Shown here: in pieces, positions 12,028 through 32,152 of the stretch
Numbering within the stretch: the stretch's first letter is position 1
How the letters are laid out: the number at the start of each line of letters is the position of its first letter
Assembly (NCBI GenBank): GCA_026393675.1
Contig: JAPKZQ010000040.1
Location: forward strand, 1-64,000
Length of the DNA: 64,000 nt
Source of the DNA: Acidobacteriota bacterium
GTDB lineage: Bacteria; Acidobacteriota; Vicinamibacteria; Vicinamibacterales; JAKQTR01
Direction of reading: 5' to 3'
Program-made: the position numbers and the translations under genes
The notes under the pieces: generated by a model
The model's database searches: none
Told to the model about the DNA's origin: nothing
Seen by the model: the letters and a program-made list of their open reading frames with translations, nothing else

Positions 12028-12710
12028 TACTCCGTCATGAGCGGCTCAAAGGTCCACAACGCCAGGGTCACGAACACGGCGTCGAAAAATACCAGCAACG
12101 CGACCCAGAATCGCGCCATGGGCTCATCGGGAACGGTCTGAAGCAGTGCCACGGTTCCGCGCACTCCAGCGATGATGATCGGAATCGTGATGGGATACAA
12201 GAGTACCGGCAGCAGCACGTCCCGACTGCGCGCGCGGACGAGCATGGCGGCAAACAGGGTCCCGACAGACGCGAAGCCGAGCGTGCCGGCGACCAGCAGC
12301 AGCACCAGCCACAGCGGGCTCGCGCCGAAGGACGCATTGAAGAGCAGCCCGACCAGGGGAACCAGCACCATCTCGACCACGCCGAGCAGAATCAGGATGC
12401 CGAACAGTTTGCCGACGTAGATGGCGGGCCGGTCTGACGGCGCCAGCATCAGGGCGCGCAATGTCTCGGTCTGCCGTTCCCGCTCAAAGGTCCGTCCGAG
12501 CGCGAGCGTGCCGGCAAACGCGATGGCGATCCACAGGATGCCCGCGGCCGCGTCCTCCATGGGTTGTCCTTCCCGCACCAGCGCGAAGGCGAACACCAGG
12601 ACGCACGAGGCCGCGAAAAACACGGTGGTGTAGAGGATTTCCCGGCTTCGGACCTCGACAGTGAGGTCCTTTCGCATCACGATCCAGGCGACTCGCAGAA
12701 ACTGTCTCAT
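12027..12710 (-). CDS. ccmB: Heme exporter membrane protein CcmB
   Basis: A 227-residue membrane permease of the CcmAB ABC complex, which uses ATP to free holo-CcmE from CcmC. The family pattern is visible: an early RKDLTVEVRSREILYT segment, then GILWIAIAFAGTLALGRTFERERQTETLRALMLAP, and about five further helices. It overlaps ccmA by 4 bp (ATGA) and ccmC by 1 bp, so translation is coupled. Confidence 0.93.
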   Translation of the reverse strand: MRQFLRVAWIVMRKDLTVEVRSREILYTTVFFAASCVLVFAFALVREGQPMEDAAAGILWIAIAFAGTLALGRTFERERQTETLRALMLAPSDRPAIYVGKLFGILILLGVVEMVLVPLVGLLFNASFGASPLWLVLLLVAGTLGFASVGTLFAAMLVRARSRDVLLPVLLYPITIPIIIAGVRGTVALLQTVPDEPMARFWVALLVFFDAVFVTLALWTFEPLMTE

Positions 12711-13420
12711 CGTCGTGCCGCCGCAACCGCGTCGCGATAGCGTTCCCGCAGACTCGCAGACGAATCGTCGACCAGCAGCAGCCGGCCATCTCGCAGCACG
12801 GCGACGCGGTCGAACAGCCCTTCGGCCAAATCAAGATCGTGCGTGGCCACCAGGACGATGCGGCCGTCCTGACGGAGACCGCGGAGGCGGGCCACCAGGG
12901 TCTGTCCGGAGGCGTCGTCTAGGCCGGTGAACGGCTCGTCGAGCAACAGCAGCCGGGGCTCGTGCAGTAACGCGCGCTCCAGCGCGAGGCGTTGTCGCAT
13001 CCCCCTCGAGAATCCCGACACCAGATCGTCGGCGCGCTCGCGAAGCCCCGCGCGACCGAGAGCGTCGCCGACCACGCCCGGCACGTTCGGACAGCCGTAC
13101 AAGCGCGCAAAGAACTCGAGATTCTCGCGAGCGCTGAGTTCGGGATACAGGTACAGGTCGTGGCCAAGCAGCCCCAGCCGGGCTCGAAGCCATGGGCCCA
13201 TCGCGCGCGATGTCGCCGATCCGTAATGGATTTCACCCGACGAAGCCGTCAACAGCGTGGACAGGATAGCGAGCAGCGTGGACTTGCCGGCGCCGTTGGG
13301 CCCCAGCAGGCCGACAATTTCTCCGGCGCGACACGTCAGGTTGACACGATTCAGCGCGCGACGACGGCCGAAGTTTCGCGAGACGTCTTCGACGACCAGG
13401 TGATCGAAATCGAACGTCAC
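12707..13420 (-). CDS. ccmA: ABC transporter ATP-binding protein CcmA
   Basis: The ATPase of the CcmAB complex, 237 residues. Walker A is GPNGAGKST (about 38-46). The signature region reads FSRGMRQRLALERALL instead of LSGGQ, a change common in CcmA. Walker B is LLLLDEPFTGLD and the switch histidine is in LVATHD. It overlaps both neighbours by 4 bp: the upstream uncharacterised membrane protein (stop at 13417) and ccmB. Confidence 0.93.
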   Translation of the reverse strand: MTFDFDHLVVEDVSRNFGRRRALNRVNLTCRAGEIVGLLGPNGAGKSTLLAILSTLLTASSGEIHYGSATSRAMGPWLRARLGLLGHDLYLYPELSARENLEFFARLYGCPNVPGVVGDALGRAGLRERADDLVSGFSRGMRQRLALERALLHEPRLLLLDEPFTGLDDASGQTLVARLRGLRQDGRIVLVATHDLDLAEGLFDRVAVLRDGRLLLVDDSSASLRERYRDAVAAARR

Positions 13421-17361: not shown

Positions 17362-17424
17362 CGACGCGTAGGTTGTTAAAGAGGACCGTTCGGGGGAACG
17401 CAAGAGGAGCGCGAGGCGCGAACG

Positions 17425-17859
17425 TTACATGCCCGGGCTGCCCAACCCCTTCTTCGGCTCGTACTTCGAAGGACATTTGGCCATGACGCCGTTCGGGGTC
17501 ACATGGAAACCATCCGCCTCCAGGCGACCTTTAAGGACCACTTCCGAATCGTCCTTGAACGTGTCGGGCACGATTCCGATATAGGTGGCGTCGACGACGG
17601 CGCCTTTGCTTTGAACCTTGAACTTGTATTCAAGGGAGTCGCGTTTGCGCAGGATGGAGCTCTTGACCACGAACCCGTGGATCTGCAGGTTCTTCCCCTG
17701 CCACTGGGTGGGGTTCACCATCACTTCTTCCACGTGCTTGTAGTATTCGGTGCCCTCGTTCAAGGTCGAATAGAGGAGGCCGGCCAGGGCCAGAACCAGG
17801 ACCACGCTCGTTATACCGATTTTGACGGCTTTCTGTTTCATAGGCAGAGCGTTCACCAC
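17425..17859 (-). CDS. ccmE: Heme chaperone CcmE, CxxxY variant
   Basis: A 144-residue periplasmic heme chaperone with one N-terminal anchor (about 12-31) and the OB-fold core (NLQIHGFVVKSSI; YIGIVPDTFKDDSEVVLKGR). The usual covalent heme ligand is the histidine of HxxxY. Here the motif is C129-P-S-K-Y133, with Y133 conserved. This is the known CxxxY subtype, found in organisms that lack the standard CcmH. An AGGAG lies 4 bp before GTG 17859; ATG 17841 (MKQKAVKIG) is an equally plausible start. It is the first gene of the ccm operon. Confidence 0.92.
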   Translation of the reverse strand: MVNALPMKQKAVKIGITSVVLVLALAGLLYSTLNEGTEYYKHVEEVMVNPTQWQGKNLQIHGFVVKSSILRKRDSLEYKFKVQSKGAVVDATYIGIVPDTFKDDSEVVLKGRLEADGFHVTPNGVMAKCPSKYEPKKGLGSPGM

Positions 17860-17899
17860 ACTCCTGTCCCATCAGAATACCGCCCGGAGCGCCGACCGG

Positions 17900-18487
17900 T
17901 CAAACGCCAGAAACAGCCGTCGCACCCCCGGTCAGGCCCAGTTCGCGCAACAGGCCGTACAGGGTCGATACCGGCAGACCCATGACATTGCTGTAGGACC
18001 CCTCCACCTCCACCACAAACCTCGATGCGATACCCTGAATGGCATACGCGCCAGCCTTGTCCCTGGGCTCACCGGTGGCCACGTAGGCCAGGATCTCGTC
18101 GTCTCGGAGTGTCGCAAACGTCACCGTGGAACGCTCGACGGCCTGCCGCATACGCGACGCGTAGCACACGCAAAGACCGGTGAGCACCTCGTGGCTCCGG
18201 CCCGACAATCGGCGCAACATGGCGGCGGCCGCTTCGTCGTTCTCGGGCTTGCCGAGAATCAACTCCTCGATGACGACGACGGTATCAGCCGCGACCACGC
18301 CGCGCTGCGGGTACAGATGGGCAACCGCCGACGCCTTGGACAGTGCCAACCGCCGAACGTGGTCGTCTGGGCGCTCGCCGGGCAGCACGCGCTCGTCCAC
18401 ATCCGCCGGGACGGTATCAAACGCGAACCCGGCGGCGGTGAGCAGGTCGGCGCGGCGGGGAGAGGCGGACGCCAGCACAAGTCGCAC
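17900..18487 (-). CDS. maf: Maf family nucleotide pyrophosphatase
   Basis: A 195-residue Maf/YhdE protein that hydrolyses non-canonical or pyrimidine nucleoside triphosphates. Family signatures are ASASPRRADLL (residues 6-16), DVDERVLPGE, the catalytic VAADTVVVI, and SGRSHEVLTG. The C-terminal YAIQGIASRFV and SYSNVMGLPV are also standard. It starts at ATG 18487, 24 bp from the dispersed repeat (copy 3), and lies upstream of ccmE on the same strand with a 41-bp gap. Confidence 0.93.
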   Translation of the reverse strand: MRLVLASASPRRADLLTAAGFAFDTVPADVDERVLPGERPDDHVRRLALSKASAVAHLYPQRGVVAADTVVVIEELILGKPENDEAAAAMLRRLSGRSHEVLTGLCVCYASRMRQAVERSTVTFATLRDDEILAYVATGEPRDKAGAYAIQGIASRFVVEVEGSYSNVMGLPVSTLYGLLRELGLTGGATAVSGV

Positions 18488-18510
18488 ACGCGGATGTTAC
18501 ACTAGGCGGT

Positions 18511-18634
18511 CCTCGCGCTTCGACTCGCGATGACGGTTGCGTATCTTGCGAGACGATCCGGTCGCCGGTGCTCGCTCAGCACTAAGTCCTGAGGGAGTAA
18601 ACTCGTCGCCGAGTTTATGAATCGAGTGACGTAG
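18511..18634 (+). repeat. Dispersed ~122-bp intergenic repeat, copy 3
   Basis: Same orientation as copy 2. It shares GCTTCGACTCGC at the left, GCTCGCTCAGCACTAAGTCC in the middle and a degenerate right end. The internal hairpin is TAAACTCG-TCGC-CGAGTTTA, a perfect 8-bp stem whose sequence differs from copy 1 at three pairs, all compensated. It fills most of the divergent space between maf and the DciA-like gene. Confidence 0.85.
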
Positions 18635-18645
18635 GCTTCGACGTC

Positions 18646-18975
18646 ATGGAACCTGTTCAGCACCTCGTCTCGTCCGCCATTGCCCGCATCGTGCGTCCGG
18701 CTCCGCTCACGATTGAGAAGGTCATGTTCGCCTGGCGCGTCTCGGTGGGCCCAGCCCTGGCGCGTCTCACGCGTGTGACGCTCAGCCAGAACGGCGTGAT
18801 GGACGTGGTCGTCGAAGACGGTCGCTGGGTGAAAGAGCTGGAACGCTTGTCACCCACGATCCTGGAACGGCTGCGCGACCTCCTCGGACAAGACGAGGTT
18901 CGTCGCATCGAGTTGACCTGTCCCGCCAGCCCCCGATCGGATCGTCGCCGCCCCCGGAGCACGCGCAGTTTATAG
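18646..18975 (+). CDS. DUF721 / DciA-like protein
   Basis: A 109-residue protein of the DUF721 family, whose best-studied member DciA loads or stimulates the replicative helicase DnaB. The core VMFAWRVSVGPALARLTRVTLSQN followed by VDGRWVKELERL-type residues and LRDLLGQDEVRRIEL shows the KH-like domain. The protein is shorter than many DciA proteins and lacks a long tail. It starts 11 bp after dispersed repeat copy 3, which may therefore carry or influence its promoter. Confidence 0.78.
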   Translation: MEPVQHLVSSAIARIVRPAPLTIEKVMFAWRVSVGPALARLTRVTLSQNGVMDVVVEDGRWVKELERLSPTILERLRDLLGQDEVRRIELTCPASPRSDRRRPRSTRSL

Positions 18976-21246: not shown

Positions 21247-21322
21247 GCCGAGGTAGCTCAGTTGGTAGAGCACTGCACTGAAAATGCAGGGGTCCCCAGT
21301 TCAAGTCTGGGCCTCGGCACCA
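21247..21322 (+). tRNA. tRNA-Phe (GAA)
   Basis: A 76-nt cloverleaf with the acceptor GCCGAGG pairing to CCTCGGC, a D-arm AGCTCAGTTGGTAGAGC, anticodon loop CTGAAAA (anticodon GAA), the T-loop GTTCAAGTC, and an encoded CCA. Its 3' 45 nt is the left attachment core of the integrated element, which restores the gene exactly. Confidence 0.97.
21278..21322 (+). repeat. attL core (tRNA-Phe 3' half)
   Basis: The 45 bp from the anticodon loop (CTGAAAATGCAGG) through the CCA end are identical to 32108-32152. Sequence diverges at once on both sides (CGTAAAG after attL, GAAACCCC after attR). Confidence 0.95.
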
Positions 21323-21390
21323 CGTAAAGCCAACAAACACAGCGGCTTAGACATTCGGGACAACCGAAGGTCTGTGCGGCGATATTCCCA

Positions 21391-21409
21391 GTGGTGCCCT
21401 GGGTGGTGC
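21391..21409 (+). promoter_or_regulatory. Candidate integrase arm-type sites, left end
   Basis: Two direct GTGGTGC heptamers (21391-21397 and 21403-21409) start 12 bp apart. The same pair with the same spacing lies at 31955-31973 near the other end. The wider context AGTGGTGC-N5-GTGGTGCT is shared. The remaining part of the 21323-21673 gap shows no gene. Confidence 0.55.
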
Positions 21410-21635
21410 TCGGTAGGTCGAAAGTGCCGCTCTACCGCTGTGGCGGCTTCGAGTGCGAATCCAAGTTCAACTTGATGTTGTCAGCCGCCCGCACGGCCGG
21501 CGAGTTCGACGTAGATCGAAGTCGTCCGGCAACATCGCTGAGATTCTAACCCGCAGGTCCACTCGGACCTATCCCCCACCATCTCTGACCGTCCCTTTAC
21601 TCAAGAAGTCGCGTGGAAATCTCCCGCGATGTCGC

Positions 21636-21665
21636 TTGACTCGTGTAACGTAGTTGCTTTACAGT
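21636..21665 (+). promoter_or_regulatory. Candidate promoter of the ribbon-helix-helix gene
   Basis: TTGACT (21636-21641), an 18-bp spacer and TACAGT (21660-21665). The start would be near 21672, almost at the ATG at 21674, so the message would be leaderless or nearly so. Confidence 0.45.
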
Positions 21666-21673
21666 GGCTCGTG

Positions 21674-21859
21674 ATGGCGGACCGAGTACTGCTCAACTTC
21701 CGAATCGATCACGAGCTGGCCGAGGGCTTGAAGGCGGTGGCCGTCCGCGACGGCGTGCCGCAGTCTGAGCAGGTGCGGCGAGCGATTCGGCGGTGGTTGG
21801 AAGATCGGAAAGCGATCAAGGCGGAGCGTCCACGGCCGGCAAGCCGCAAACGCTCCTAA
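21674..21859 (+). CDS. Small ribbon-helix-helix DNA-binding protein
   Basis: A 61-residue protein: an N-terminal beta strand (ADRVLLNFRID), helix LAEGLKAVAVRDG and helix PQSEQVRRAIRRWLEDR, then a basic tail. This is the CopG/Arc/MetJ layout, so it probably binds operator DNA as a dimer. It is the first gene inside attL and could be the element's repressor or a plasmid-type copy regulator. ATG 21674 is preferred over an upstream start that would precede the promoter. Confidence 0.7.
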   Translation: MADRVLLNFRIDHELAEGLKAVAVRDGVPQSEQVRRAIRRWLEDRKAIKAERPRPASRKRS

Positions 21860-21939
21860 ACCGTCACCCTGCGTAACCAGGCCGACGATCTGCTGGCTAT
21901 TCTACCAGCGACCCGCCGGCCTCCGATCCTGGAGGCAGT

Positions 21940-22269
21940 ATGGCAACATCCCGCAAGCGGAAACCTCAACAGTCCCCCGTAGACACACATGAACGCTTCG
22001 TGCAGGCTAGGCGCCAGCTTCAGCGAGACGCGCAAGCCCTTGTCGCCGACTTCTTCGCGTCGTTCGACTTCTTGGGCGCGATTGCTGAGAGACAGGACTG
22101 TGAGCAGTTGGCCAAGAAACACGCCGCGGCCGAATTACGGATCTCGGAGAGCGGCGATGCGGCCCTGACGAAACAACTGGCCGAAGAGAAAGCGATGTAC
22201 GCGATCGGCGTGGCAGTTGGTCAGCGGCTGGAGGCCCGCGCGTTCGACACGACTGGCGGTGTCCGATGA
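21940..22269 (+). CDS. Hypothetical element protein (109 aa)
   Basis: No family recognised. It has a basic N-terminus (MATSRKRKPQQS), then a mostly helical charged region (RFVQARRQLQRDAQALVADFF; CEQLAKKHAAAELRISES). It overlaps the next gene by 4 bp (ATGA) and begins a three-gene coupled set with the genes at 22266 and 22529. Confidence 0.6.
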   Translation: MATSRKRKPQQSPVDTHERFVQARRQLQRDAQALVADFFASFDFLGAIAERQDCEQLAKKHAAAELRISESGDAALTKQLAEEKAMYAIGVAVGQRLEARAFDTTGGVR

Positions 22270-22532
22270 GCGCGCCACACACGCCGACCGTTGAAGAACG
22301 ACTATGCGAAGTGGAGTCGACGCTTGCACTGCTGCTGTTGACGACGCGCGCCCTGTCGTCGTGTGACGAGCTCTGCCTCGACGACAACGACAAATCCGCC
22401 GCGTGGGCGAAACTGGACGACCTCACGATAGATGCCCTGGCCAACACGCGCGCAGTCAAACACGCGTTGCCGTTCGCCAGCTCGAACCTTCGCGCGCCCG
22501 ATGCAGAGAAACGATCGGCGGTGCCGTCATGA
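22266..22532 (+). CDS. Hypothetical element protein (88 aa)
   Basis: No family recognised. The N-terminal half has a helical pattern (TVEERLCEVESTLALLLLTTRAL), possibly a short coiled coil; the rest is polar. It overlaps both neighbours by 4 bp, so it is probably translated with them. Confidence 0.55.
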   Translation: MSAPHTPTVEERLCEVESTLALLLLTTRALSSCDELCLDDNDKSAAWAKLDDLTIDALANTRAVKHALPFASSNLRAPDAEKRSAVPS

Positions 22533-22891
22533 CGCGCAACGTGCTGTTCGTCAGTGAGCTCATGGAGGCCTTGGGTTGTAGTCGCCGCACCATCGAGCGA
22601 TGGCGGCGGGCGGGGCGATTCCCGATTCCAGAAGTGTTGCCGCGGCTGGGACGTCGGCCGCGATTCCGTCGAGCGGATGTCGAGGCGTACGTCGACGGCA
22701 CGTCACGACGACGGCCGGCGGCACAAGGGACAGTACGAAGATGCGACCAGGCTCCAGCGGATCGGCGGGGGAAATTGTCTTTGTGCACCGTACAACGCCG
22801 TTGGACGTTCGGACATCCCGATCCTGTAGCGCATGCCGAGGCACAGCCGTTGCGAATGAGCCGCCCCGCTACGGCGGCCCAGTGTCCGTGA
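22529..22891 (+). CDS. MerR/AlpA-type helix-turn-helix protein
   Basis: A 120-residue protein with an N-terminal winged HTH: VSELMEALGCSRRTIERWRRAGRFP (residues 8-32), then PRLGRRPRFRRADVEAYV, the pattern of AlpA/excisionase proteins. The C-terminal 50 residues are basic and low in structure, so the true domain is the first 65. ATG 22529 overlaps the upstream stop. It may be a transcriptional activator or directionality factor for the element. Another HTH of this class lies at 29496-29738. Confidence 0.7.
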   Translation: MTRNVLFVSELMEALGCSRRTIERWRRAGRFPIPEVLPRLGRRPRFRRADVEAYVDGTSRRRPAAQGTVRRCDQAPADRRGKLSLCTVQRRWTFGHPDPVAHAEAQPLRMSRPATAAQCP

Positions 22892-23034
22892 GACGGTTGC
22901 GGACTATCCGTCCACGAACTATAGTCCACACAAATCACAGCCCCCACGGACAATCAGCGGCATTCTCAGAAGAGCGTTCGACGATCGGAACGGGAACGCC
23001 GTAGACGAGCTGCCGCAGGCTCGGAGACCTACCC

Positions 23035-23250
23035 ATGACTCGACGCGACCAATGGATCGTCGTCGCCCTTGTGTTGGTCGTCGCCCTGCTGTACCTGGCG
23101 TTCCCGCGCTACGAGTGGCGCCAGGCGACCAATGGGCGCATGACTCGCGTTGACCGCTGGACTGGCCAGGCCGACTTCATGGTACCGGGGGCGGACGGCC
23201 AATATGTCCCATACGTGCGTCCGCTGGCACCGACGGAGCCCGTAAAATGA
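23035..23250 (+). CDS. Small single-span membrane protein
   Basis: A 71-residue protein with one N-terminal helix (WIVVALVLVVALLYLAF, residues 7-23) after a basic start (MTRRDQ), then a polar exported or cytoplasmic part. Function unknown. It overlaps a 33-codon frame by 4 bp. The 143 bp upstream hold no feature I can support. Confidence 0.55.
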   Translation: MTRRDQWIVVALVLVVALLYLAFPRYEWRQATNGRMTRVDRWTGQADFMVPGADGQYVPYVRPLAPTEPVK

Positions 23251-23348
23251 CCACCAAACCCACGCTCGCCGCCCTGCTCGACGATTGCTGCGCCCACTAC
23301 AACAGCCTCGAGGCCAGCGCCGTTTCACTCAGGTATGGAGGTTGTTAG
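23247..23348 (+). CDS. Very short ORF (33 aa), possibly a truncated gene
   Basis: It begins at an ATG overlapping the previous stop (ATGA) and reads MTTKPTLAALLDDCCAHYN... to ...SLRYGGC. The coupled start suggests that a real gene began here. The short length and abrupt end suggest truncation; I cannot identify a family. Confidence 0.35.
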   Translation: MTTKPTLAALLDDCCAHYNSLEASAVSLRYGGC

Positions 23349-23399
23349 GCTGTAGAAGGTTGACGCCTCCGCGAATGGCGCCAGGCTCGCTGACTCATG

Positions 23400-23834
23400 C
23401 TAGTCGTGGATGTTGACCACGATGCCGTTGTTCGTCGCATGTGCTCCCGGCGACTGCGCGGACGCGGCGCCGGTCGATTCCATGACCGGCAACAACACCC
23501 TGAACGTCTCCAAATCGTCGGCCGCTCGTATGATGTGGGCGGCCATCGCCTCCGCCCACTTCACGCCGATGACGTGGTGAACCTGCTCAAGCCACCAGGC
23601 GCGCCACTCCGGGCGCCTGAACCGCCAGCCGACTTGCACGTGTGACAGGCCGGCCAGATGTCCGATGTTGCGGGTGGTAGGCGGTTTCCGCTCCGCGCGA
23701 AGCGTCAGCCATGCATCCAGGATGGCCCAGTCCTTCGGCGTTGGGTGGTAGGGGGCGGGAACGGTAGGCTCCGGAAGGGTTCTCCGCCAGGCGCGTGGCG
23801 TCGCCTGCTGTTCCTGCGAAACGAGTCCGGGCAT
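23400..23834 (-). CDS. HTH-containing phage protein, possibly small-terminase-like
   Basis: A 144-residue protein. Residues about 30-80 form a helix-turn-helix-like unit (PKDWAILDAWL; TRNIGHLAGLSHVQVGWRF; RPEWRAWWLEQV), followed by a helical AEAMAAHIIRAADDLETFRVLLPVME and a flexible tail. DNA-binding N-terminus plus helical oligomerisation region is the general design of small terminases, but I see no diagnostic motif. AAAGGAA precedes ATG 23834. It lies directly downstream of the iteron cluster. Confidence 0.5.
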   Translation of the reverse strand: MPGLVSQEQQATPRAWRRTLPEPTVPAPYHPTPKDWAILDAWLTLRAERKPPTTRNIGHLAGLSHVQVGWRFRRPEWRAWWLEQVHHVIGVKWAEAMAAHIIRAADDLETFRVLLPVMESTGAASAQSPGAHATNNGIVVNIHD

Positions 23835-23871
23835 GGTCGTTCCTTTCAACTGCGCGGGTGTTGCTCATCTC

Positions 23872-24135
23872 CGGACAACGGACGCCGGACAGGGACAGAC
23901 ACCCCCTCTAAAGAGGGGGGTTGTCCGTCCGCTCTGTCGAGGGCTGTTTGTCCGGACAAGTTGTCCGCCAAATTCGGCCAATGATTACGGGCGCGTTTCG
24001 CGTACTCGGGGCGCTTGTCCGCTCGCGTTCGGACAACGTGTCCGAAAAAGTTGTCCGCTCCACTTGTCCGCCCGTATTTCCTAACAAAAACACAGAAACC
24101 CCTGTCTTGCCGATGACGTGTCCGGAACTTGTCCG
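23872..24135. repeat. Iteron cluster: ten TTGTCCG sites in both orientations
   Basis: TTGTCCG occurs at 23921, 23948, 23961, 24015, 24051, 24064 and 24129; its complement CGGACAA occurs at 23872, 23953 and 24030. GTGTCCG variants lie at 24038 and 24118. The sites at 23948 and 23953 form a perfect palindrome, TTGTCCGGACAA. An A-rich stretch (24071-24104) lies among them. This fills the 315-bp gap between two minus-strand genes. It fits a replication origin or a multi-site operator. Confidence 0.8.
23902..23919. other. Strong hairpin within the iteron region
   Basis: CCCCCTCT pairs with AGAGGGGG over 8 bp with AA between. No clear T-tract follows on either strand. Confidence 0.5.
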
Positions 24136-24149
24136 CTCCCGTCCCGAGG

Positions 24150-24467
24150 TCATGACTGTTGTCCTACCAGCACCTGGAGCCGGCGGGTCAAGTCCTCATA
24201 TTCCGGTGTGTTCTGTTGGCCGCTGGCATCCATCGCCTCAAGGGCTTGCGCCAACTCGGTGGCTTGCATCAACACCTGTTCCTGCTCGAGCGTCGAGTCG
24301 AGGGGCTCTGGGGCCTGCAGGTCGCCACGAAGGGGAACCGGCTTGCCTTGGTCCTGCAGCGTGTCGATCGAGGCTCCACGTGGCCGCAGGCCGAAGGGGC
24401 CATTACCCAGGGGAAGGGTCGGGCGTGGGGTCAGGCCGGAGGCGGTGAGTGATGGGCGAATTCTCAT
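24150..24467 (-). CDS. Hypothetical element protein (105 aa)
   Basis: No family recognised. The N-terminal half is proline/glycine-rich and probably disordered. The C-terminal half is a helical pair (EQEQVLMQATELAQALEAMD; PEYEDLTRRLQVLVG). GGAG lies 7 bp before the ATG. It lies downstream of the two long phage-type genes on the same strand and may be a small virion or assembly factor. Confidence 0.5.
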   Translation of the reverse strand: MRIRPSLTASGLTPRPTLPLGNGPFGLRPRGASIDTLQDQGKPVPLRGDLQAPEPLDSTLEQEQVLMQATELAQALEAMDASGQQNTPEYEDLTRRLQVLVGQQS

Positions 24468-24505
24468 AGGGTGACTCCGTTCCGACGTTGTATCCTTGCC
24501 CTCGT

Positions 24506-24853
24506 ATGTCCTCAGACGTTCGTGACTTCTGGCTTCTCGTCACGGGCCTCGTCCTCGCCTTTGGCTCCGCCGCACTCGTCATCCGTTGGATGCGGCGGGC
24601 GACACCGACACACTGGTCTCGCCCGACGCGTTGGGCCTATCTTGGCTTCAAGTGGACGCTCATCTCGTTTGGCGGATACGCCTGCCTCGGGCTTGCCGTC
24701 CAGGAACTACAAGAGAAACGCGTCGGCATCGGCACGGGCGTCCTCTTCACGGTCGTCTTTGCCACCATCAAGGCCCTGATTACTGTTTGGACGACACTAC
24801 GACACCAAAGCGGCCCAGAATCTCCCCAGCCTCCTGCGCGTTCTGATTCGTGA
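24506..24853 (+). CDS. Small membrane protein, possible holin
   Basis: A 115-residue protein with three hydrophobic segments (about 9-27, 50-65 and 75-93: FWLLVTGLVLAFGSAALVI; WTLISFGGYACLGLAV; GTGVLFTVVFATIKALITV) and a polar tail. Size and layout fit a class I holin, but no signature proves it. ATG 24506 is chosen. Its last 74 bp overlap the 3' end of the convergent gene 24780-26348, so one stop may not be used as drawn. Confidence 0.5.
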   Translation: MSSDVRDFWLLVTGLVLAFGSAALVIRWMRRATPTHWSRPTRWAYLGFKWTLISFGGYACLGLAVQELQEKRVGIGTGVLFTVVFATIKALITVWTTLRHQSGPESPQPPARSDS

Positions 24854-26348
24854 TTGCATCTTCCAGGCGCTTCGCCCACACCCCCGCCCTCATTTGGTTG
24901 TTCCGGAGCCAATTGGCTGCAAAGGACAACAGCGGCAGTTTCCCGCTGGCAATCTCGCCCGCGGCGATGACATGCGCGGGGAGACTGACGGCATCGCGGT
25001 TGCCCTGTCGGAAGAGCGTCCGATCAAGGGTCTGTTTCGCCTGAATCGCCGCCTTCTGTTGGGCGAACAGGGGTTGTGTCTCTGGAACAGCCGCCTTCAC
25101 TGAGTCACGGGCCGCGCGTTCCACGGCCTTGCTCGCTTCCTGCCCGGCCCCCTTCATCTCGCCCCACGCCTTGCGGTTACTCCAGCGCGACGTACCACGC
25201 GCAATATCCAGCGCCTCCCCAGGCGCAACGTCAGTCCTGAGCGCACGCGAGGCAACCTGTTGCGGGGTCAACGCCGGCTGTCCGGACGCATTGAAGAGAC
25301 CGGCGATCGACGGTCTCATAACCGTCTTCGTGACCGTTTCCGATAGTGGTGATTGCTCGAGCAGTTCACTGGCCGCGCGGCGAATCGTGGCGACGTCATC
25401 GGCGGGAAGGCCCTGTTTCGCCGCGCTTCGTTCAAGGGCCTGGAGATAGCGCATGGCGCGTTGTGGCGCATCGCTGACCGCGCTGCTCTTCGAGAGCGCG
25501 TCCTGAATCCCTTTCTCAGCCGCCGTAATGAGCGCCTCTGCCTTGGCCGGTGTCGTCAGTTTGTTGTCGAGAATGAATCGGCTGAGGCGATTGGCGATCG
25601 CGTCGATACCCTGGACGGATGCCCCAGCCTGCTGCTTCATGGCCGTGACGGTCGGCTTGATGGCCGCGCGGACGAGCGGCACCGCCAACGATCCGATCCC
25701 CTCCGCCGCCTTCGCAACGGCGCCACCGATGACGGGCATTGCGGCGCCGACGCCTGCCGCCGTTCCAACATCCCCGCCCTGGATCTTCGTCATGCCTGCC
25801 GATAAACCGGACTGCACGGCGGATCGTGTCCCGAGGTTGATTGCTGACCGGCCGAGACGACTCGTCACCGCTGGCAGCACTTTCGCCGCGATCCCTGTCG
25901 CGAGTTTCTCGGCTTGGGCTCCGGGGACGAAATACTCAGCGACCTGTTCGATGACATTGCCGACCTTCTGCGCGGTGTTCTGTGGAGCCAGATCAGGCCC
26001 AACGTCTTCTAGCGCCTGCTTCGTGTTGATGCCGGGCACCCCGAGCGCGCCGTAGCCCGCATCGATTGCGGCGGCGACCCCTGGGATCTTCGTGGCCAGT
26101 TTCCCCAGGCCGACCGCGCTCGTGCCGAGCCCCTTCAACGCGCCGAGTAGGGCGTCCACGATGACGCCGTGATCGACGGGCTGGCCGTTGACGCTGAAGT
26201 GTGCTGACTCGCCGACGTTGACACGATCGGTCGGCGCATTCGAGGCGAACCAGTTATCCCCACCCGAGGGAGCGGCTACAGGCGGAGCAATGAGCGCGCC
26301 AGGCTTCGGCGCATTCGAGGCGAACCAATCAGGCTGTTGAGGCATCAT
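24780..26348 (-). CDS. Large phage-type protein with repeated WFASNAP motif (522 aa)
   Basis: The N-terminus carries WFASNAP twice (residues 8-14 and 33-39), joined by a proline/alanine-rich linker. A long alanine/glycine-rich helical body follows, with a hydrophobic stretch at 170-230, then helices with ERAARDSVKAAVPETQPLFAQQKAA near 410-435. This is the style of phage internal or ejection proteins, which are poorly conserved. It overlaps the upstream 515-residue gene by 4 bp (ATGA), so the two are translated together. Function not established. Confidence 0.6.
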   Translation of the reverse strand: MMPQQPDWFASNAPKPGALIAPPVAAPSGGDNWFASNAPTDRVNVGESAHFSVNGQPVDHGVIVDALLGALKGLGTSAVGLGKLATKIPGVAAAIDAGYGALGVPGINTKQALEDVGPDLAPQNTAQKVGNVIEQVAEYFVPGAQAEKLATGIAAKVLPAVTSRLGRSAINLGTRSAVQSGLSAGMTKIQGGDVGTAAGVGAAMPVIGGAVAKAAEGIGSLAVPLVRAAIKPTVTAMKQQAGASVQGIDAIANRLSRFILDNKLTTPAKAEALITAAEKGIQDALSKSSAVSDAPQRAMRYLQALERSAAKQGLPADDVATIRRAASELLEQSPLSETVTKTVMRPSIAGLFNASGQPALTPQQVASRALRTDVAPGEALDIARGTSRWSNRKAWGEMKGAGQEASKAVERAARDSVKAAVPETQPLFAQQKAAIQAKQTLDRTLFRQGNRDAVSLPAHVIAAGEIASGKLPLLSFAANWLRNNQMRAGVWAKRLEDAITNQNAQEAGEILGRFGVVVSSKQ

Positions 26349-27892
26349 CGGATCACCGTCGCCCCAAGCGATTTGTAGTGTTCCACGAGGCCAGCCGGAA
26401 CATCCGAAATCTGACCGTTCGGTGCCTTCATCTTGACCGTCCCGTCACCGCCAGCAGGAGACGCTGACGCTGTGGCAGGCGGAGGCGCTGCCTGTGGTGG
26501 CGCCCCGCCCATCCGTGTCGTGATGTGATCGATCGTGGCGCCGTACCCGTCAATCGTCAGGCGCATCTCGCGTTTCATCAGGCCGACCACACTAGCCAGC
26601 GTGGTCGGATTCATTGTGGCCTTCACCAGATCCTCCGCCGCCTTGCGGGCGGAATCCGACGAGGCCGCGACTGCCCCGGTGGACCCTTCCATGATCTTCG
26701 CGTATTCGGTCGAGAACGTCGTGATTGCGTTGAACAGCATCGCCGTGTCGCTGTCGCCAGCAATCTCCTTCTTCCCGGCCAGAAGCCAACTGTTCAACAT
26801 CGGAGAAGCCGTGCGCCCGACCTTGGGCGAGAGTTCGCTGATGATATCCGTCTGAGCCAGGGCCTTCGTCTCGAAGGACTCCGCCGCCGCACTCATCGTC
26901 GTCATCTTCCCCAGCGCCCCGCTGTCAGCCTTGTAGGCGGCCTGTTTCTGGATGGCCATGACCGGAGTCTGTCGCAGCGCCTTCGCCTGTTGTGCCGTTC
27001 GGTTGATGATGGCTGCGCGCGCCTGAGCGTTCCCCATCCCGAGCGCCGGCATCACGCCCGTAACACGGTACTGCGTGGCCGCGTAGTCAACCCCTTCGTC
27101 GGTTAGCGCGCCATTCGTGCCAGGCCCGCCACCCAGCATATTGACGAGGCTCGGTTTCCACGTGGCCGTCGCGTGCTCCTTCGCGCCCTGCAGCATCTGG
27201 TCCGGCGTCGGATTCTTGCCGTACTTTCCGATGATGTAGGCGCCCTCAGACCCCATCGGCGGGATCGGCTGTTCGCGTGGTGGCCCCTGAAACGTCTCTG
27301 ACACTCCGGGCCTCGCTGTCGGCCGCGTGCCAGAACTGCCAGGCGTGTAGATGTGTGTCTTGCCTTGGTCCTCGGCGAAGCTCTTCATCCACGTTGCGTC
27401 AAACGCCTTCTTCGACGATTCCTCCCGCGTGTCGAGCGGCAGTTCGAAGCCCGGAACCCCGATTGACGGCTGGCCGGGTATTGGGTAGGGCTTCAGCTTC
27501 TCCCGCGTCTGCTGTTCCATGAAGGTCGGCAAAGATCCGAATCCGAAGTCTTGTTCCCCCGCCGGCTGTTCGCGTGACGTGAACTGCAACATTGACTCCG
27601 GCGCGTCGATCAGCGAGTACCGCCCGTTGATGGCGTTGTAGTTCACCAGCGATTCGTCCCGCGCCTTGCCCTCGTTCGACACGGTCGCGATCATCTTCCG
27701 AAGGTCCTGCTCCTGCTGCGCGATCCGGTCCAGCCGGCCTGCTCGATCCTGCTCGGCTTTCGTCTTCGCCGCGTCCGCCTTCATCCCCTGCATCCACTGG
27801 TATGCCTTGAAGAACCCGTCGAGCCCTTGGCCGAGCCCGTAGCCGATCGCGTTCCCCCACCCGCCAGCCTTCTGGAGTTGTGCTTGTGGCAT
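26345..27892 (-). CDS. Large phage-type protein (515 aa)
   Basis: It begins MPQAQLQKAGGWGNAIGYGL and continues with a charged coiled stretch (KTKAEQDRAGRLDRIAQQEQDLRKM). The middle is polar. The C-terminus ends in KAPNGQISDVPAGLVEHYKS then GATVIR, a phrase I associate with phage structural or ejection proteins. No enzymatic motif is visible. The downstream partner overlaps it by 4 bp. It follows the ATPase gene after 41 bp. Confidence 0.6.
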   Translation of the reverse strand: MPQAQLQKAGGWGNAIGYGLGQGLDGFFKAYQWMQGMKADAAKTKAEQDRAGRLDRIAQQEQDLRKMIATVSNEGKARDESLVNYNAINGRYSLIDAPESMLQFTSREQPAGEQDFGFGSLPTFMEQQTREKLKPYPIPGQPSIGVPGFELPLDTREESSKKAFDATWMKSFAEDQGKTHIYTPGSSGTRPTARPGVSETFQGPPREQPIPPMGSEGAYIIGKYGKNPTPDQMLQGAKEHATATWKPSLVNMLGGGPGTNGALTDEGVDYAATQYRVTGVMPALGMGNAQARAAIINRTAQQAKALRQTPVMAIQKQAAYKADSGALGKMTTMSAAAESFETKALAQTDIISELSPKVGRTASPMLNSWLLAGKKEIAGDSDTAMLFNAITTFSTEYAKIMEGSTGAVAASSDSARKAAEDLVKATMNPTTLASVVGLMKREMRLTIDGYGATIDHITTRMGGAPPQAAPPPATASASPAGGDGTVKMKAPNGQISDVPAGLVEHYKSLGATVIR

Positions 27893-27933
27893 GGTCGTCC
27901 TCGCCTATATGTGTCCGTTTGCCTCGAGCGCCG

Positions 27934-29160
27934 TCACGACGCCCGCCTTTCAACCAAGTGGATTCGGGTCACGCCGTCAGCCCCCGGCTGCCGGGTAAAC
28001 AGCTTCGAACAGCGGCGGACGGTCCGTTCGATCGTCTCGACCTTAGCGTCAAGTTCGGTTGACATCGCCGTCAGAGTCATCGGGCCGCTGGTCAGCGTGC
28101 CGCGCATCCGCTGCCACAGCGGCAGCTTGCCGGCGAAGTCCTCGGACTCGGTGAGGTTGCTCGGCTGGATAGAGATGCGATCGCCCCGAAATGAAATCTG
28201 GAGCCCTCGGGCAGCCAGCAGCGGTCCCGTGTTGCACTTGCGATGGAACAGCGCCACCGTCACGTCACTGGCGTTGCCGTCAGCCTCGGAGCGTTTGGCG
28301 AACCATGTACTCCGCGCGCTGTTGTGCCAGAAGGCCGAGCCGAATGGCTTTTGGTCGCCGTTCTCGCTGCGGTTGATGTGCGCGATCATCGTGGCCCCGA
28401 CGCGCAACTGGCGCATGGCGCGACAATAGGCGTTGGCCGTCTCGGCGGCCTCGGGCGGTCCGTCGCACCCGTAGGCGAGCGAATCGAGGATCATGTACTG
28501 AATCCCGTGCGCCACGATCAGACGCCGGAGCCGGTCCACTTCAACTGTAAGCGGGGCCTCACAGCGCGCGTACCGCACGTCGGGCATGTCGGCACCGAAC
28601 AGAGATTCGAGCCGGGCGCGGTGATCCCCCGCGCTGGTTTCCCAATCGGCATAGAGCACCGACACCCCGCGCTGTGCGAGTTCGCCGGCCCGCGCGAGGG
28701 CAATCAGGGACTTGCACGCGCCGCCATCGCCGAAGATGATCTCGGGGTGATCCTTGAGCACGGGCAGCCCGTGGATGGTCCAGGTCGCGTCAGGTGAGGG
28801 TTTCGGCATGTCGCGGAGCAGCACCGCCGACGCGCCTGTCCGCTCGGCGATAACGACCCGCTGACAGAAGTACTCAAGCGTGCCGTACCAGTCGTAGTCG
28901 CTGGCCTCACTGCGCTTCGCCAATAACTTCGCGCGGGTCTCGCGGGCCGAGATGGATGAGAAGTTGAGGCTGCCGACCAGCAGCGCACCGTCGCCGTTGA
29001 CACGCTTCGCGCCTGGCAGGTCGCACGTCACCGTCAGTTCGCCGATCAGTTCGCCCGAGTGCCGCGCCAGACGGTCCACCGATAGCACGATACCCGGCCC
29101 CGGCACTTCGAGCCGGTAGCAACCGTCGCCTCGATCGATGAAGTCCTGCTCGGGCGTCAT
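27934..29160 (-). CDS. RepA/DnaB-like P-loop ATPase
   Basis: A 408-residue RecA-fold ATPase of the AAA_25/RepA type. The P-loop region is IIFGDGGACKSLIAL (Walker A at 144-151), where the usual glycine before the lysine is Cys149. YADWETS (about 170-176) gives the catalytic acid, and QYMILDSLAY (221-230) is Walker B. ATMIAHINR and KPFGSAFWHNSARSTWF are the later family motifs. A winged-helix-like C-terminus follows (LTSGPMTLTAMSTELDA). The likely role is replication initiation or helicase for the element, possibly with the iteron cluster. It overlaps the upstream gene by 4 bp. Confidence 0.78.
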   Translation of the reverse strand: MTPEQDFIDRGDGCYRLEVPGPGIVLSVDRLARHSGELIGELTVTCDLPGAKRVNGDGALLVGSLNFSSISARETRAKLLAKRSEASDYDWYGTLEYFCQRVVIAERTGASAVLLRDMPKPSPDATWTIHGLPVLKDHPEIIFGDGGACKSLIALARAGELAQRGVSVLYADWETSAGDHRARLESLFGADMPDVRYARCEAPLTVEVDRLRRLIVAHGIQYMILDSLAYGCDGPPEAAETANAYCRAMRQLRVGATMIAHINRSENGDQKPFGSAFWHNSARSTWFAKRSEADGNASDVTVALFHRKCNTGPLLAARGLQISFRGDRISIQPSNLTESEDFAGKLPLWQRMRGTLTSGPMTLTAMSTELDAKVETIERTVRRCSKLFTRQPGADGVTRIHLVERRAS

Positions 29161-29444
29161 GCGGCGCGCCCCGTTGCACCACGCGACGTGTAGCGCGCGA
29201 GTTCAGCCCGCAGCGAACGGATCGCCCCACGCTGGCTGATGATCGTCGCGCGCAGCCGCTTCACCGTTTCGGTGAGTGCCGCCACTTCGGCAACGGCGAC
29301 CTGATTCAACTCGCGGTAGATGTGCATGTCGGCGGCCAATTCTCGCGCCTCATCAGTCGGGTCGTGCTCGGAGAACGCGAGTTCGCGGATGACTAGATCC
29401 GCTGCGCCGAGTGGTGGTAGAGTGTGCGAGTCCATCTCGTGCAT
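29157..29444 (-). CDS. Small coiled-coil element protein (95 aa)
   Basis: Acidic N-terminal half, then a heptad-rich helix (AEVAALTETVKRLRATIISQ, then RGAIRSLRAELARY). It overlaps the ATPase start by 4 bp and so may be a partner or loader of it, but no family is recognised. A second ATG nine bases in is an alternative start. Confidence 0.6.
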   Translation of the reverse strand: MHEMDSHTLPPLGAADLVIRELAFSEHDPTDEARELAADMHIYRELNQVAVAEVAALTETVKRLRATIISQRGAIRSLRAELARYTSRGATGRAA

Positions 29445-29495
29445 GTGTCTTCGCTCCGGGCCGCGCTGCCAACGCGGCCTTCCGTCTGTACGGGC

Positions 29496-29738
29496 TCATG
29501 CCGCCGGCCGGACCGTGTGGCTGTCGAGCCACCGTTCGAGATCGGCCACGCGGTAGCCAATCAACCGCCGGACGCGGACAAACGTCGGCCCGCGGCCGAA
29601 GATGCGCGCTTTCTTCAGATACGCTCGGCTCATGCCGAGGTAGCGGGCCGCGTCCGGTTCGCGGAGCACGGCCGGAACGATGCCGCTTGCAGTGATGGAC
29701 GTCGTAGCGTTGGTGGGTGCCTGGGTATGCTGCATCAT
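29496..29738 (-). CDS. AlpA-family excisionase-like HTH protein
   Basis: An 80-residue protein with the AlpA/HTH_17 pattern: LREPDAARYLGMSRAYLKKAR, then GPTFVRVRRLIGYRVADLERWLDSH. Proteins of this kind act as excisionases or activators of integrase genes in P4-like elements and satellites. It lies upstream of the replication ATPase and downstream of the integrase on the same strand. Confidence 0.8.
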   Translation of the reverse strand: MMQHTQAPTNATTSITASGIVPAVLREPDAARYLGMSRAYLKKARIFGRGPTFVRVRRLIGYRVADLERWLDSHTVRPAA

Positions 29739-29787
29739 GCCCGGAGAATACCGAGCACGGGACCACCGAAAAAGGACAGTTAAGGAC

Positions 29788-30708
29788 TCAGCCTAGCCCG
29801 GTGACTTTTCGAGGTCGGCCCGTTCGAACGGGCGCGCGCAACGTGACCCCCACGATTGGCGCCAGCCGAACAACCGCATCACGCACGGTGTTGTGGGGTG
29901 CTTCGCGTGACGCCACGGGAAGCCCCTTCGCGATCGTGGCGTAGGACTCGCGGTTCATCTGATAGCGAACCAGCCAGACAAAATGCCTGTCGTCTGAATC
30001 ATCAGCCGAGCCTCGCCGTGCCCGCAGCCGCTTCAATCCGTTGGCCTCTGCTTGTGTCAACACGTCGCGGGCGTGTTGCTTGGCGCGTGCGCCATACTCG
30101 GTCGTGGTGTCCCTCAGGGGGTCAAGCCGCGGGAGTCCCCGCGGTGGACGTTGCGCCGCTTCGATGAACCAGCCGTCTGCCTCCGGCGACGTGCGCGTGA
30201 AACGCGGCCCCTTCCCTGTCGCGGGCGCTGATGACTCTGGCGCGTCCACGGCTGCCACGGCGGCGGGATGTGGGAGCGGCGTCGGTTGCGGGCCGAATCT
30301 ATCGGCGACGTGCCACGTTCCACGCCCAAGCGTCCCACGGAACCATCCCGTCATCGACTCCCGAATGATGGAGCGGAACGGACCGTCAGACAGGCCGTAC
30401 CGGGCCGCCCATGCGTCAACGTCAGGATTGCAGAGCCACGGGACCGCGTCGAACGTGACTGGGCCTGTCACAATTGGCGCCGGCGGCGGACTCGCCTTCT
30501 GGGTCGTGTTCATCCTCGCATCCATCAGCGCCAGCGCGTCCGCTCCCATCAAGGCTTCCACTTCCTTGAACACGAGCGGGCATCGCGCGGGCGTCATGGC
30601 TTCGAAGAACCGCGCCACGGCGCCGTGGATGGGATAGCGCGGATCGTACAGGTCGCCAGGGATGAGCCGTTGCGGTGGCCGCTTCGGGTCTTGCGTGCTG
30701 TTGGGCAT
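29788..30708 (-). CDS. Hypothetical element protein (306 aa)
   Basis: No family recognised. It has a globular N-terminal part (DLYDPRYPIHGAVARFFEAM; WAARYGLSDGPFRSIIRESM), a proline/alanine linker near 150-170, and a basic C-terminal region. The latter contains FVWLVRYQMNRESYATIAKG and TVRDAVVRLAPIVGV, which look like a DNA-binding HTH. It starts 5 bp after the integrase gene ends and is likely co-transcribed with it. It could be a replication or regulatory protein. Confidence 0.6.
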   Translation of the reverse strand: MPNSTQDPKRPPQRLIPGDLYDPRYPIHGAVARFFEAMTPARCPLVFKEVEALMGADALALMDARMNTTQKASPPPAPIVTGPVTFDAVPWLCNPDVDAWAARYGLSDGPFRSIIRESMTGWFRGTLGRGTWHVADRFGPQPTPLPHPAAVAAVDAPESSAPATGKGPRFTRTSPEADGWFIEAAQRPPRGLPRLDPLRDTTTEYGARAKQHARDVLTQAEANGLKRLRARRGSADDSDDRHFVWLVRYQMNRESYATIAKGLPVASREAPHNTVRDAVVRLAPIVGVTLRAPVRTGRPRKVTGLG

Positions 30709-30713
30709 CGTCG

Positions 30714-31937
30714 TCAGCCCGCCGCCACGAGCTTCGCCACCGCGGCCGCGCGATGCTCAGGCGCCAGATGGGCGTACCGCAGCGTCATCTTGATGTCCGC
30801 GTGCCCAAGCAGCTCGCGCACCGTGTTCAGATCGACGCCAGCCTGTACCAACTTCGACGCGAACGTGTGCCGCAGGTCATGGACCCGGAATCCGGCAATC
30901 GGTGTGCCGATGACGCTCGTGAGCAGGTTCTTCCATGCGGTCTTGATGTCTACGAGCCGCCCGCCGTCCTCGCCGGGAAACACGTAGCCATCGGCGGGAT
31001 CGGGCTGCCACGCCTTGAGTACATCCGCCACCGTCTTATTGAGCGGGACATATCGGGTCTTGCTGGACTTCGACGTTTCGCCGCGCACTGTGAGCAGCGC
31101 CCCGGTCAGATCCACATCACGCCACGTCAGGCCGCAGGCTTCGCCGAATCGCAGCCCGGTATGGAGAAGCATGATCACCAGTGGGGTCAGCACGTCGGTG
31201 TACATCCCGAGTTCGGGCCAGAGTTCGTACCCGCGCTGTGCCCGCCAGACGTTCGCTGAGACGCGCGCTTGACGACGTTCCTCGTCTCGCGCGGCCAGCG
31301 CCGCCCGCAGCCGCGTTTCTTCATCGGGTGACAGGTAGCGCAGCCGCCCGATCGCGTCCACTCTCGCGAGCTTCAGGCCCGCCAGGGGATGCCGATCAAG
31401 GTGGCGCCACTCCACCGCCTTCGCGAGACAGGCCTTCAACGCCGCCAGCACCCGGTTGGCCGTGGCCGGGCTCCGGCCGCGCTTCAAATAGGCATTTCGC
31501 CACTTCTCGATCGCGAACGGCGTCAGATCGGCCAGCAACGTGTTGAGGAAATCCTTAAAACGGCCCTCGAGCATCTTGATCGTGTCGTCGCCGCTCGTGC
31601 GGTTCGCACGAACCCACGGCGCGTAGGAGTCGGTGATGAACTTCCCGAGCGCGATCCGCCGCTTGGCTTCTTGCGCCTGCCGTTTCTTCGCCGCGATCGG
31701 GTCATCGCCGCCAGAGTCCTCGCCGAGCCGTTCACGCGCCAGCTTGCGCGCCTTCAGCGGAGGGATCACATCGGCCCGCCCGATTGTGAACCATCGTCCT
31801 CGGCCGAGCCGGACCAGCCACGAGTGGTGGCCGCTCGGTCGGACGCGCAACACCAATCCGCGTTGTTCGCTATCAGCCAGGTCATACGAACCGGGTTTGA
31901 GCGAGTCAAGAAGCGCCTGGGTGATCTTCGTTCTCAC
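30714..31937 (-). CDS. int: Tyrosine-type site-specific integrase
   Basis: A 407-residue integrase catalysing recombination between attP and the tRNA-Phe site. An N-terminal arm-binding region of DUF4102 style (residues 1-90) is followed by a core-binding domain (about 95-190) and the catalytic domain. The active-site residues are all visible: R263 (HTGLRFGEA), K293, H353 and R356 (HDLRHTFAS), H379 (LLGHADI) and Y388 (TLRYAHL). It begins 170 bp from attR and reads inward. It looks intact, so the element may still excise. Confidence 0.94.
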   Translation of the reverse strand: MRTKITQALLDSLKPGSYDLADSEQRGLVLRVRPSGHHSWLVRLGRGRWFTIGRADVIPPLKARKLARERLGEDSGGDDPIAAKKRQAQEAKRRIALGKFITDSYAPWVRANRTSGDDTIKMLEGRFKDFLNTLLADLTPFAIEKWRNAYLKRGRSPATANRVLAALKACLAKAVEWRHLDRHPLAGLKLARVDAIGRLRYLSPDEETRLRAALAARDEERRQARVSANVWRAQRGYELWPELGMYTDVLTPLVIMLLHTGLRFGEACGLTWRDVDLTGALLTVRGETSKSSKTRYVPLNKTVADVLKAWQPDPADGYVFPGEDGGRLVDIKTAWKNLLTSVIGTPIAGFRVHDLRHTFASKLVQAGVDLNTVRELLGHADIKMTLRYAHLAPEHRAAAVAKLVAAG

Positions 31938-31954
31938 GGTGCCTCAAATCCCTA

Positions 31955-31973
31955 GTGGTGCTCCTGGTGGTGC
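31955..31973 (+). promoter_or_regulatory. Candidate integrase arm-type sites, right end
   Basis: GTGGTGC at 31955-31961 and 31967-31973, in direct orientation and 12 bp apart. They mirror the pair at 21391-21409 at the other end and sit between the integrase start and attR. The rest of 31938-32238 holds only attR. Confidence 0.55.
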
Positions 31974-32107
31974 TTTGCGCGTCATTCTCGGTGGTCGCAG
32001 CGTCACCCGCCATATCCGACACAGCCAGTGTAACCCATTGGTAGGTAAGGGTCACACGGTATTTGATGAGTGATGGAGAGTAGCGGGTGTGAGACAGGAA
32101 AATCACT

Positions 32108-32152
32108 CTGAAAATGCAGGGGTCCCCAGTTCAAGTCTGGGCCTCGGCACCA
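32108..32152 (+). repeat. attR core
   Basis: Perfect 45-bp copy of the tRNA-Phe 3' end, without the 5' half of the tRNA. It marks the right boundary of the element. Confidence 0.95.

Follow-up and report, generated by a model that had tools for sequence, protein, structure and literature searches.

A tRNA-Phe-integrated element in an Acidobacteriota genome as a candidate phage satellite carrying a podophage-type ejection protein pair

A 10.8-kb element integrated in the tRNA-Phe gene of a soil Acidobacteriota genome is likely a phage satellite rather than a prophage remnant, and two of its long genes, p515 and p522, appear to encode podophage-type DNA ejection proteins. The element occupies positions 21278–32152 of the window, i.e., the stretch of 64,000 nucleotides analyzed here, which begins at position 1 of contig JAPKZQ010000040.1 (C40; 127,843 bp) of assembly GCA_026393675.1 (G000; 3.25 Mb, 46 contigs, 98.6% complete). 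We assign a probability of approximately 0.6 to the reading that the ejection pair of this satellite is functional and is built into chimeric virions of a helper phage. Its gene content suggests a satellite of the phage-inducible chromosomal island (PICI) or capsid-forming PICI (cf-PICI) type, with two podophage ejection genes occupying the slot of the capsid-packaging cassette. The satellite reading is based on an integrase/AlpA backbone shared with small elements bounded by attachment (att) repeats, an empty tRNA site in a related genome, and long proteins of ejection type; the anatomy of the element, its membership in the backbone family, and the homology and gene position of the pair were observed directly. 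The satellite reading had also been proposed in the original prediction, which a model made from the DNA letters without database searches, and it is supported by the shared small-satellite backbone, the empty site, and the homology of the pair.

Integration site and satellite backbone

The tRNA-Phe (GAA) gene detected by ARAGORN at 21247–21322 on the plus strand is the integration site. The left att core (21278–21322, plus strand) is the 3′ part of this gene and completes it, so that the tRNA is restored, and the right core (32108–32152, plus strand) is identical to it over 45 bp, the start-to-start distance being 10,830 bp. An empty, single-copy site is present in a genome of the same family (G001, locus L113), where recA is followed by tRNA-Phe with a single core copy, and the gene at the right flank of the element lies within approximately 0.6 kb after the tRNA. 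As expected of a satellite, this specific att site is accompanied by an integrase gene of the element's own. From the right core, the minus strand encodes in order the integrase (int), p306, alpA, p95, repA, p515, p522, and p105, followed by an iteron cluster and the gene of a 144-residue helix-turn-helix (HTH) protein; from the left core, the plus strand encodes a ribbon-helix-helix (RHH) regulator, two small proteins, a second HTH_17 regulator, and a 71-residue protein.

Both domains to be expected in the tyrosine integrase (30714–31937, minus strand) are present: Phage_integrase (E = 2.6e-31) and Arm-DNA-bind_3 (E = 5e-9). The integrase is followed by the backbone protein p306 (29788–30708, minus strand), which is 30% identical over 135 residues to its counterpart in L072, and several relatives carry a protein of 169–186 residues in the same slot, although the alignment is weak. 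Two proteins of the AlpA/HTH_17 type are encoded, namely the probable excisionase next to p306 (29496–29738, minus strand; HTH_17 E = 2e-4, below the Pfam cut-off) and the excisionase-like regulator on the opposite strand (22529–22891, plus strand; Pfam E = 2e-11; PHROG 66, excisionase/regulator, E = 4e-13).

Relatives of the integrase were searched in 193 genomes of the class (Vicinamibacteria) and in IMG/VR contigs. Nine loci in eight other genomes of the class encode integrases approximately 43–61% identical to that of the element, and an AlpA homologue occurs in eight of the nine (L070–L075, L078, and L079), adjoining int in most; the backbone order in these relatives is int, a protein of approximately 170–300 residues, AlpA, and Rep. 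Six loci are bounded by att repeats of 47–53 bp (27 + 20 bp around one mismatch in L071) at tRNA-Val, tRNA-Ala, or tRNA-Lys genes, with sizes of 9,133 (L070), 8,407 (L071), 9,255 (L072), 8,415 (L074), 10,613 (L075), and 4,948 bp (L077). One HK97 capsid gene each is found in L070–L073 and L075 (phrog_10/617; PF05065 above the cut-off in four), and no portal or TerL gene was seen by eye in these five, for which no gene-by-gene test was made; these tRNA-integrated loci of approximately 8–11 kb are seemingly satellites that bring a capsid protein alone, L075 having a lambda-type tail tube protein in addition. L077 (4.9 kb) and L079 carry other cargo or hardly any.

In IMG/VR, the five best relatives (45–51% identical) lie on contigs of 7.4–11.3 kb, in which int, a protein of approximately 150–240 residues, AlpA, and Rep accompany TerL, capsid, portal, and protease genes in varying order. 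Capsid, portal, and TerL were confirmed in L116 and L118, capsid and TerL in L115, and TerL in L119. L116 (IMGVR_UViG_3300009610_000181) is a circular 10.2-kb molecule, as judged from a terminal identity of 123 bp, and an att-like tRNA-Val sequence stands beside its int. By gene content, these small contigs are cf-PICI-like. The integrase also occurs, at ≤41% identity, in contigs of 34–52 kb (L120, L121, L124, and others). In the FastTree integrase tree, the element groups with the capsid-carrying L072 and L075 (support 0.74) inside the satellite set, and the int/AlpA backbone is, by these comparisons, that of small satellites in genomes and viral contigs alike.

Ten proteins of the element were tested against Pfam and PHROG, and none matched a capsid, portal, or large terminase. 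The virion gene set is accordingly incomplete, as in satellites, and the set of capsid, portal, protease, connectors, and terminase encoded by cf-PICIs is not present. The perfect 45-bp cores spaced 10.8 kb apart in tRNA-Phe, the intact integrase, the AlpA-type regulator (in fact two HTH_17 proteins), and the lack of recognizable capsid, portal, and large terminase genes had all been described in the original prediction and hold. A full-length relative with capsid and terminase genes at this site, which would have reduced the element to a decayed prophage, was not found.

The putative ejection pair p515 and p522

The genes of p515 (26345–27892, minus strand) and p522 (24780–26348, minus strand) are intact open reading frames (ORFs) with strong coding scores. 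Start and stop codons overlap by 4 bp between p515 and p522 and between p95 and repA, and only 41 bp separate the repA stop from the p515 start; the long genes thus form one run with the replication genes and not a separate late-gene block. p515 is 61% identical over 241 residues to a protein of L002, with related proteins in L003, L004, and L008, and p522 is 45–49% identical to proteins in three phage contigs (L005, L006, and L007). In podophage contigs of 41–64 kb, the homologues lie directly after the neck genes and before genes of tail-fibre and lysis type. IMG/VR contig 3300044500_000007 (41 kb) encodes TerL (phrog_2), portal (phrog_156), capsid (phrog_283), the P22 gp10-type neck protein Hc3 (phrog_578, 1e-67), a 690-residue "DNA ejection" protein (phrog_598), and then the p515-like and p522-like proteins. 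Since this order matches the 7-20-16 order of P22, p515 is inferred from homologues and gene position to be a gp20-like ejection protein and p522 a gp16-like one. As far as homology goes, the element encodes a substitute for the DNA-delivery protein of a helper.

In P22, gp16 and gp20 of Sf6 work together and either alone does not, whereas gp7 alone does (PMC10883804, Table 4); virions with mismatched gp16 contain the protein and do not infect (PMC10883804). Furthermore, the exclusion protein SieA acts through gp16/gp20, and the ejection proteins of HK620 make P22 partly resistant (PMC10883804). The element carries exactly the pair that must be cognate in P22, and no third, gp7-like protein.

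Two terminal tags were also observed. The p522 N-terminus (window 26230–26345) bears a tandem WF..N.P tag (WFASNAP) and the p515 C-terminus (window 26345–26440) the tag KMKAPNGQ...HYKsLGATV. They are common to L003 (both tags) and L004, whose proteins are elsewhere only 20–25% identical, and are not found in the closer homologues; they are possible virion-targeting modules, which would perhaps direct the proteins into heads of a particular kind. Locus L085 (G046:C6, 11307–18686) contains an apparently split p522-like ORF (12395–13003) at a distance of 4–5 kb from an integrase gene (17421–18686) and an HTH protein; the p522-like match is weak and no att was found, and L085 is possibly a second or decayed satellite with an ejection gene.

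Replication module, alternatives, and proposed cycle

RepA (27934–29160, minus strand) is a RecA/DnaB-type ATPase (AAA_25 E = 8e-6, just under the cut-off), with relatives 37–52% identical in prophages, satellites, and phages, mostly in metagenome-assembled genomes of Acidobacteriota. Its conservation in phages and satellites, together with the iterons beside the genes of its relatives, indicates that it is probably a replication protein. The iteron cluster, a probable replication origin, holds 13 TGTCCG/CGGACA hexamers at 23872–24135, whereas 300 sequences simulated from the element with a Markov model gave 2.1 on average and never more than 4. When the TGTCCG motif was scanned around repA in 21 relatives, a cluster was found at the repA end in at least eight (L024, L025, L026, L042, L044, L047, L089, and L095), starting approximately −200 to +240 bp from the repA stop, and several others have a cluster of a different hexamer at this end. 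In the element, the cluster lies 3.76 kb downstream of repA, on the far side of p515, p522, and p105. The element thus has the replication module of its own (RepA and 13 iterons) and the HTH_17/AlpA regulator expected of a satellite. As a side observation, the RepA homologue of 3300044500_000007 in L047 (4281–6338; 685 residues) gives a match that is split around query residues 147–169, probably by an intein or some other insertion near the P-loop of the ATPase.

The position of the iterons bears on the strongest alternative, namely that the element is a decayed prophage, in which an internal deletion removed the head and neck genes of a former podophage but spared int, rep, and two ejection genes. 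Such a course is suggested by 3300044500_000007, where a related RepA is followed in the same direction by TerL, portal, capsid, Hc3, phrog_598, and the p515/p522 relatives, and by E2, a second element-like region in the same genome that is also without portal and capsid genes and keeps phage genes. However, the iterons directly follow repA in this full podophage too and would have been lost with the stretch between repA and p515, whereas the element has them beyond p522; the gene order is therefore not obtained from a full phage by one deletion, and the pair looks inserted between repA and the origin. Moreover, small satellites share the int/AlpA backbone, and the perfect att cores, intact ORFs, and 4-bp overlaps (p95–repA and p515–p522) speak against decay. 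A decayed prophage is hence unlikely. In the simplest history consistent with the gene order, the ejection pair entered a satellite between repA and an origin that had adjoined it. Alternatively, the history may have included an integrase swap or a rearrangement that left no record.

For a satellite that re-equips the injection machine of its helper, the following cycle is proposed. When a P22-like podophage infects the cell or is induced in it, Int and an AlpA-type protein would excise the element from tRNA-Phe, and RepA would start its replication at the TGTCCG iterons. The two proteins encoded directly behind repA, p515 as a gp20-like tunnel and p522 as a gp16-like protein of the inner membrane, would be made in the same cell and take the place of the corresponding helper pair in the helper's procapsids. 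Capsid, portal, terminase, tail, and a third, gp7-like ejection protein would come from the helper. Upon entry into the next cell, the satellite pair would form the conduit for the packaged DNA. The likely gain would be particles that pass ejection-directed superinfection exclusion, given that P22 SieA acts on gp16/gp20; alternatively, such particles might cross envelopes that are difficult for the ejection proteins of the helper. The helper is possibly a lytic phage or a lysogen of another strain.

The pair could instead be a weapon, mixing with helper gp16/gp20 in a dominant-negative manner and protecting the host population with no role in transfer of the element. The assembly of non-infecting P22 virions with mismatched gp16 (PMC10883804) and the attack on tail assembly by the satellite protein Rta of PLE11 (PMC12987554) would fit this function; however, one mismatched protein would be enough for poisoning, whereas the element retains the cognate pair that function would require, so that this explanation is improbable. 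Still less probable is passenger cargo, recombined in from a phage by chance and without a present role, in an element whose movement is that of an ordinary PICI-like or integrative element: the pair is in one genome only, and elsewhere in the integrase set the cargo differs or is scant (L077, 4.9 kb; L079), but neither ORF is disrupted, their coding scores are strong, they stand in a compact run with repA, and chance hardly explains why other RepA elements without portal and capsid keep a tape-measure protein, the siphophage counterpart.

Several points weigh against a satellite with chimeric helper virions. Neither p515 nor p522 matches a Pfam or PHROG family, and their function is read from homologues and position; this is expected since ejection proteins diverge fast, gp16 homologues being 16–26% identical (PMC8954989; PMC10883804). 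Profiles of the two proteins gave chance-level matches only against sequences of solved structures, both lacked a match in phage GenBank records, and p522 had none in a search of the genome's contigs. None of the 192 further genomes of the class has a good p522 homologue, and the pair occurs in one genome only. The AlphaFold model of p522 is unusable (predicted local distance difference test, pLDDT, 39.5). The 144-residue HTH protein (23400–23834, minus strand), TerS-like by layout only, has no Pfam or PHROG match and no relative in viral contigs. Its model is likewise unusable (pLDDT 48.4), and it only weakly resembles an HTH_Tnp_1_2 protein whose gene neighbours repA in L028 (29% over 48 residues, E = 0.03). 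A TerS and a packaging signal of the element's own are unproven. In the element's own genome, the phrog_2 TerL profile finds only E2 and the phrog_156 portal profile nothing, other families not having been searched. Finally, every step of the cycle and its benefit, including excision, transfer, and expression, is a sequence-based proposal.

These results also sort the remaining parts of the original prediction. The RepA/DnaB-like ATPase, the iteron cluster, and the two phage-type long proteins, which have homologues in phage contigs, were correctly recognized. The predicted Int-AlpA-replication-TerS layout stands for its first three parts, each matched in satellite relatives, while the small-terminase call is unsupported. 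A helper prophage, suggested as a check, was not found with one TerL and one portal profile, and the suggested comparison of the long proteins with profiles gave no Pfam or PHROG match, their podophage ejection type being read from homologues and gene position.

Accessory genes, related elements, and known satellites

The RHH regulator (21674–21859, plus strand; RHH_1 E = 1e-5) is 60% identical to that of E2 and 44% to that of satellite L027. It is followed on the plus strand by a small accessory protein of 109 residues (21940–22269), whose C-terminal block of 17 residues weakly matches proteins near the left ends of E2 and satellite L024, a hypothetical protein of 88 residues (22266–22532) with no Pfam or PHROG family, and, beyond the HTH_17 regulator, a 71-residue protein with one hydrophobic segment (23035–23250). 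On the minus strand, p105 is a predicted protein of 105 residues (24150–24467; coding score 19), and p95, the small coupled protein of 95 residues before repA (29157–29444), is 44% identical over 45 residues to a protein of L023. An ORF at 24488–24853 on the plus strand was considered as a holin-like gene and rejected, with a coding score of approximately −1 to 3 and an overlap with the end of p522.

Among elements with a related RepA, L024 (G080:C112:47618–62718) is a 15.0-kb element at tRNA-Leu with perfect 59-bp repeats, an integrase, RepA, TerL, and a 1303-residue tape-measure protein, and it is a candidate tape-measure satellite outside Vibrio. L027 has an integrase at tRNA-Leu, TerL, a 1097-residue tape-measure protein, and the related RepA; no portal or capsid gene was seen in either. 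The partial contig L026 encodes RepA and a tape-measure protein, and L023 encodes RepA, TerS (phrog_51), and an integrase. E2 lies on the same contig outside the window (C40:101782–120906; L068:17783 to L069:17006) and encodes an RHH protein, a primase-helicase, TerS (phrog_51), TerL (phrog_2; C40:108827–110131, 77 kb from the element), a serine recombinase, a 686-residue "endolysin" family protein (phrog_10475), and a giant protein of 2042 residues (phrog_9880), with no portal or capsid gene seen. For the C-terminal 914 residues of the giant protein, the best relative in the class genomes lies at a contig end and is uninformative. Tentatively, and at somewhat less than even odds, satellites may repeatedly capture DNA-delivery proteins of their helpers instead of, or besides, capsid genes and so remodel the injection machine of the helper virion, the captured unit here being the minimal cognate pair; the gp20/gp16-like pair would then serve for podophage helpers, siphophage helpers would be met with a tape-measure protein and TerL (L024 and L027), and perhaps the 2042-residue protein of E2 belongs to this set.

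The element resembles cf-PICIs (PMC10690885; PMC12987554) as a tRNA-integrated element of approximately 10 kb with a tyrosine integrase, AlpA, and its own Rep, and its integrase family is common to IMG/VR elements with TerL, portal, protease, and HK97 capsid; by contrast, it has no capsid, portal, or terminase, carries two podophage ejection proteins instead, and its TerS is unproven. In Vibrio cholerae, PLE satellites supply alternative tape-measure proteins, which are built into chimeric tails; tape-measure genes have also been noted in further putative satellites (PMC12987554, Nature 2026). As in PLE, a protein of the satellite's own is assigned to virion DNA delivery and chimeric particles are predicted, whereas PLE provides a tape-measure protein, tail assembly chaperone (TAC), and baseplate hub for a contractile-tailed helper on an unrelated backbone, and its chimeric virions are experimentally established while the element is known from sequence. 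P22-like podophages with ejection genes 7-20-16 (PMC8954989; PMC10883804) share the position and order of the pair, and the homologous phages have the Hc3 neck and the phrog_598 ejection protein; the element differs in lacking other morphogenesis genes and a gp7-like partner, and p515 and p522 have no detectable sequence match to known ejection families. L024 and L027 are similar in their related RepA, tRNA-borne integration, DNA-delivery virion protein, and lack of visible portal and capsid genes, and differ in their tape-measure protein plus TerL and in their integrases. No report of satellite-encoded ejection proteins was found in the literature searched, outside of which lay most subscription papers and bioRxiv.

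That satellites steal capsids or build their own was already known, and an exchange of the tape-measure protein, as in PLE, has been known since 2026. The set described here gives a first view of Acidobacteriota satellites, with capsid, tape-measure, and ejection cassettes in related backbones. If the proposed reading is true, satellite manipulation would extend to the injected conduit, the target of superinfection exclusion such as that by SieA; ejection proteins supplied by a satellite could open cells that are closed to its helper, and why satellites manipulate DNA delivery would become a testable question.

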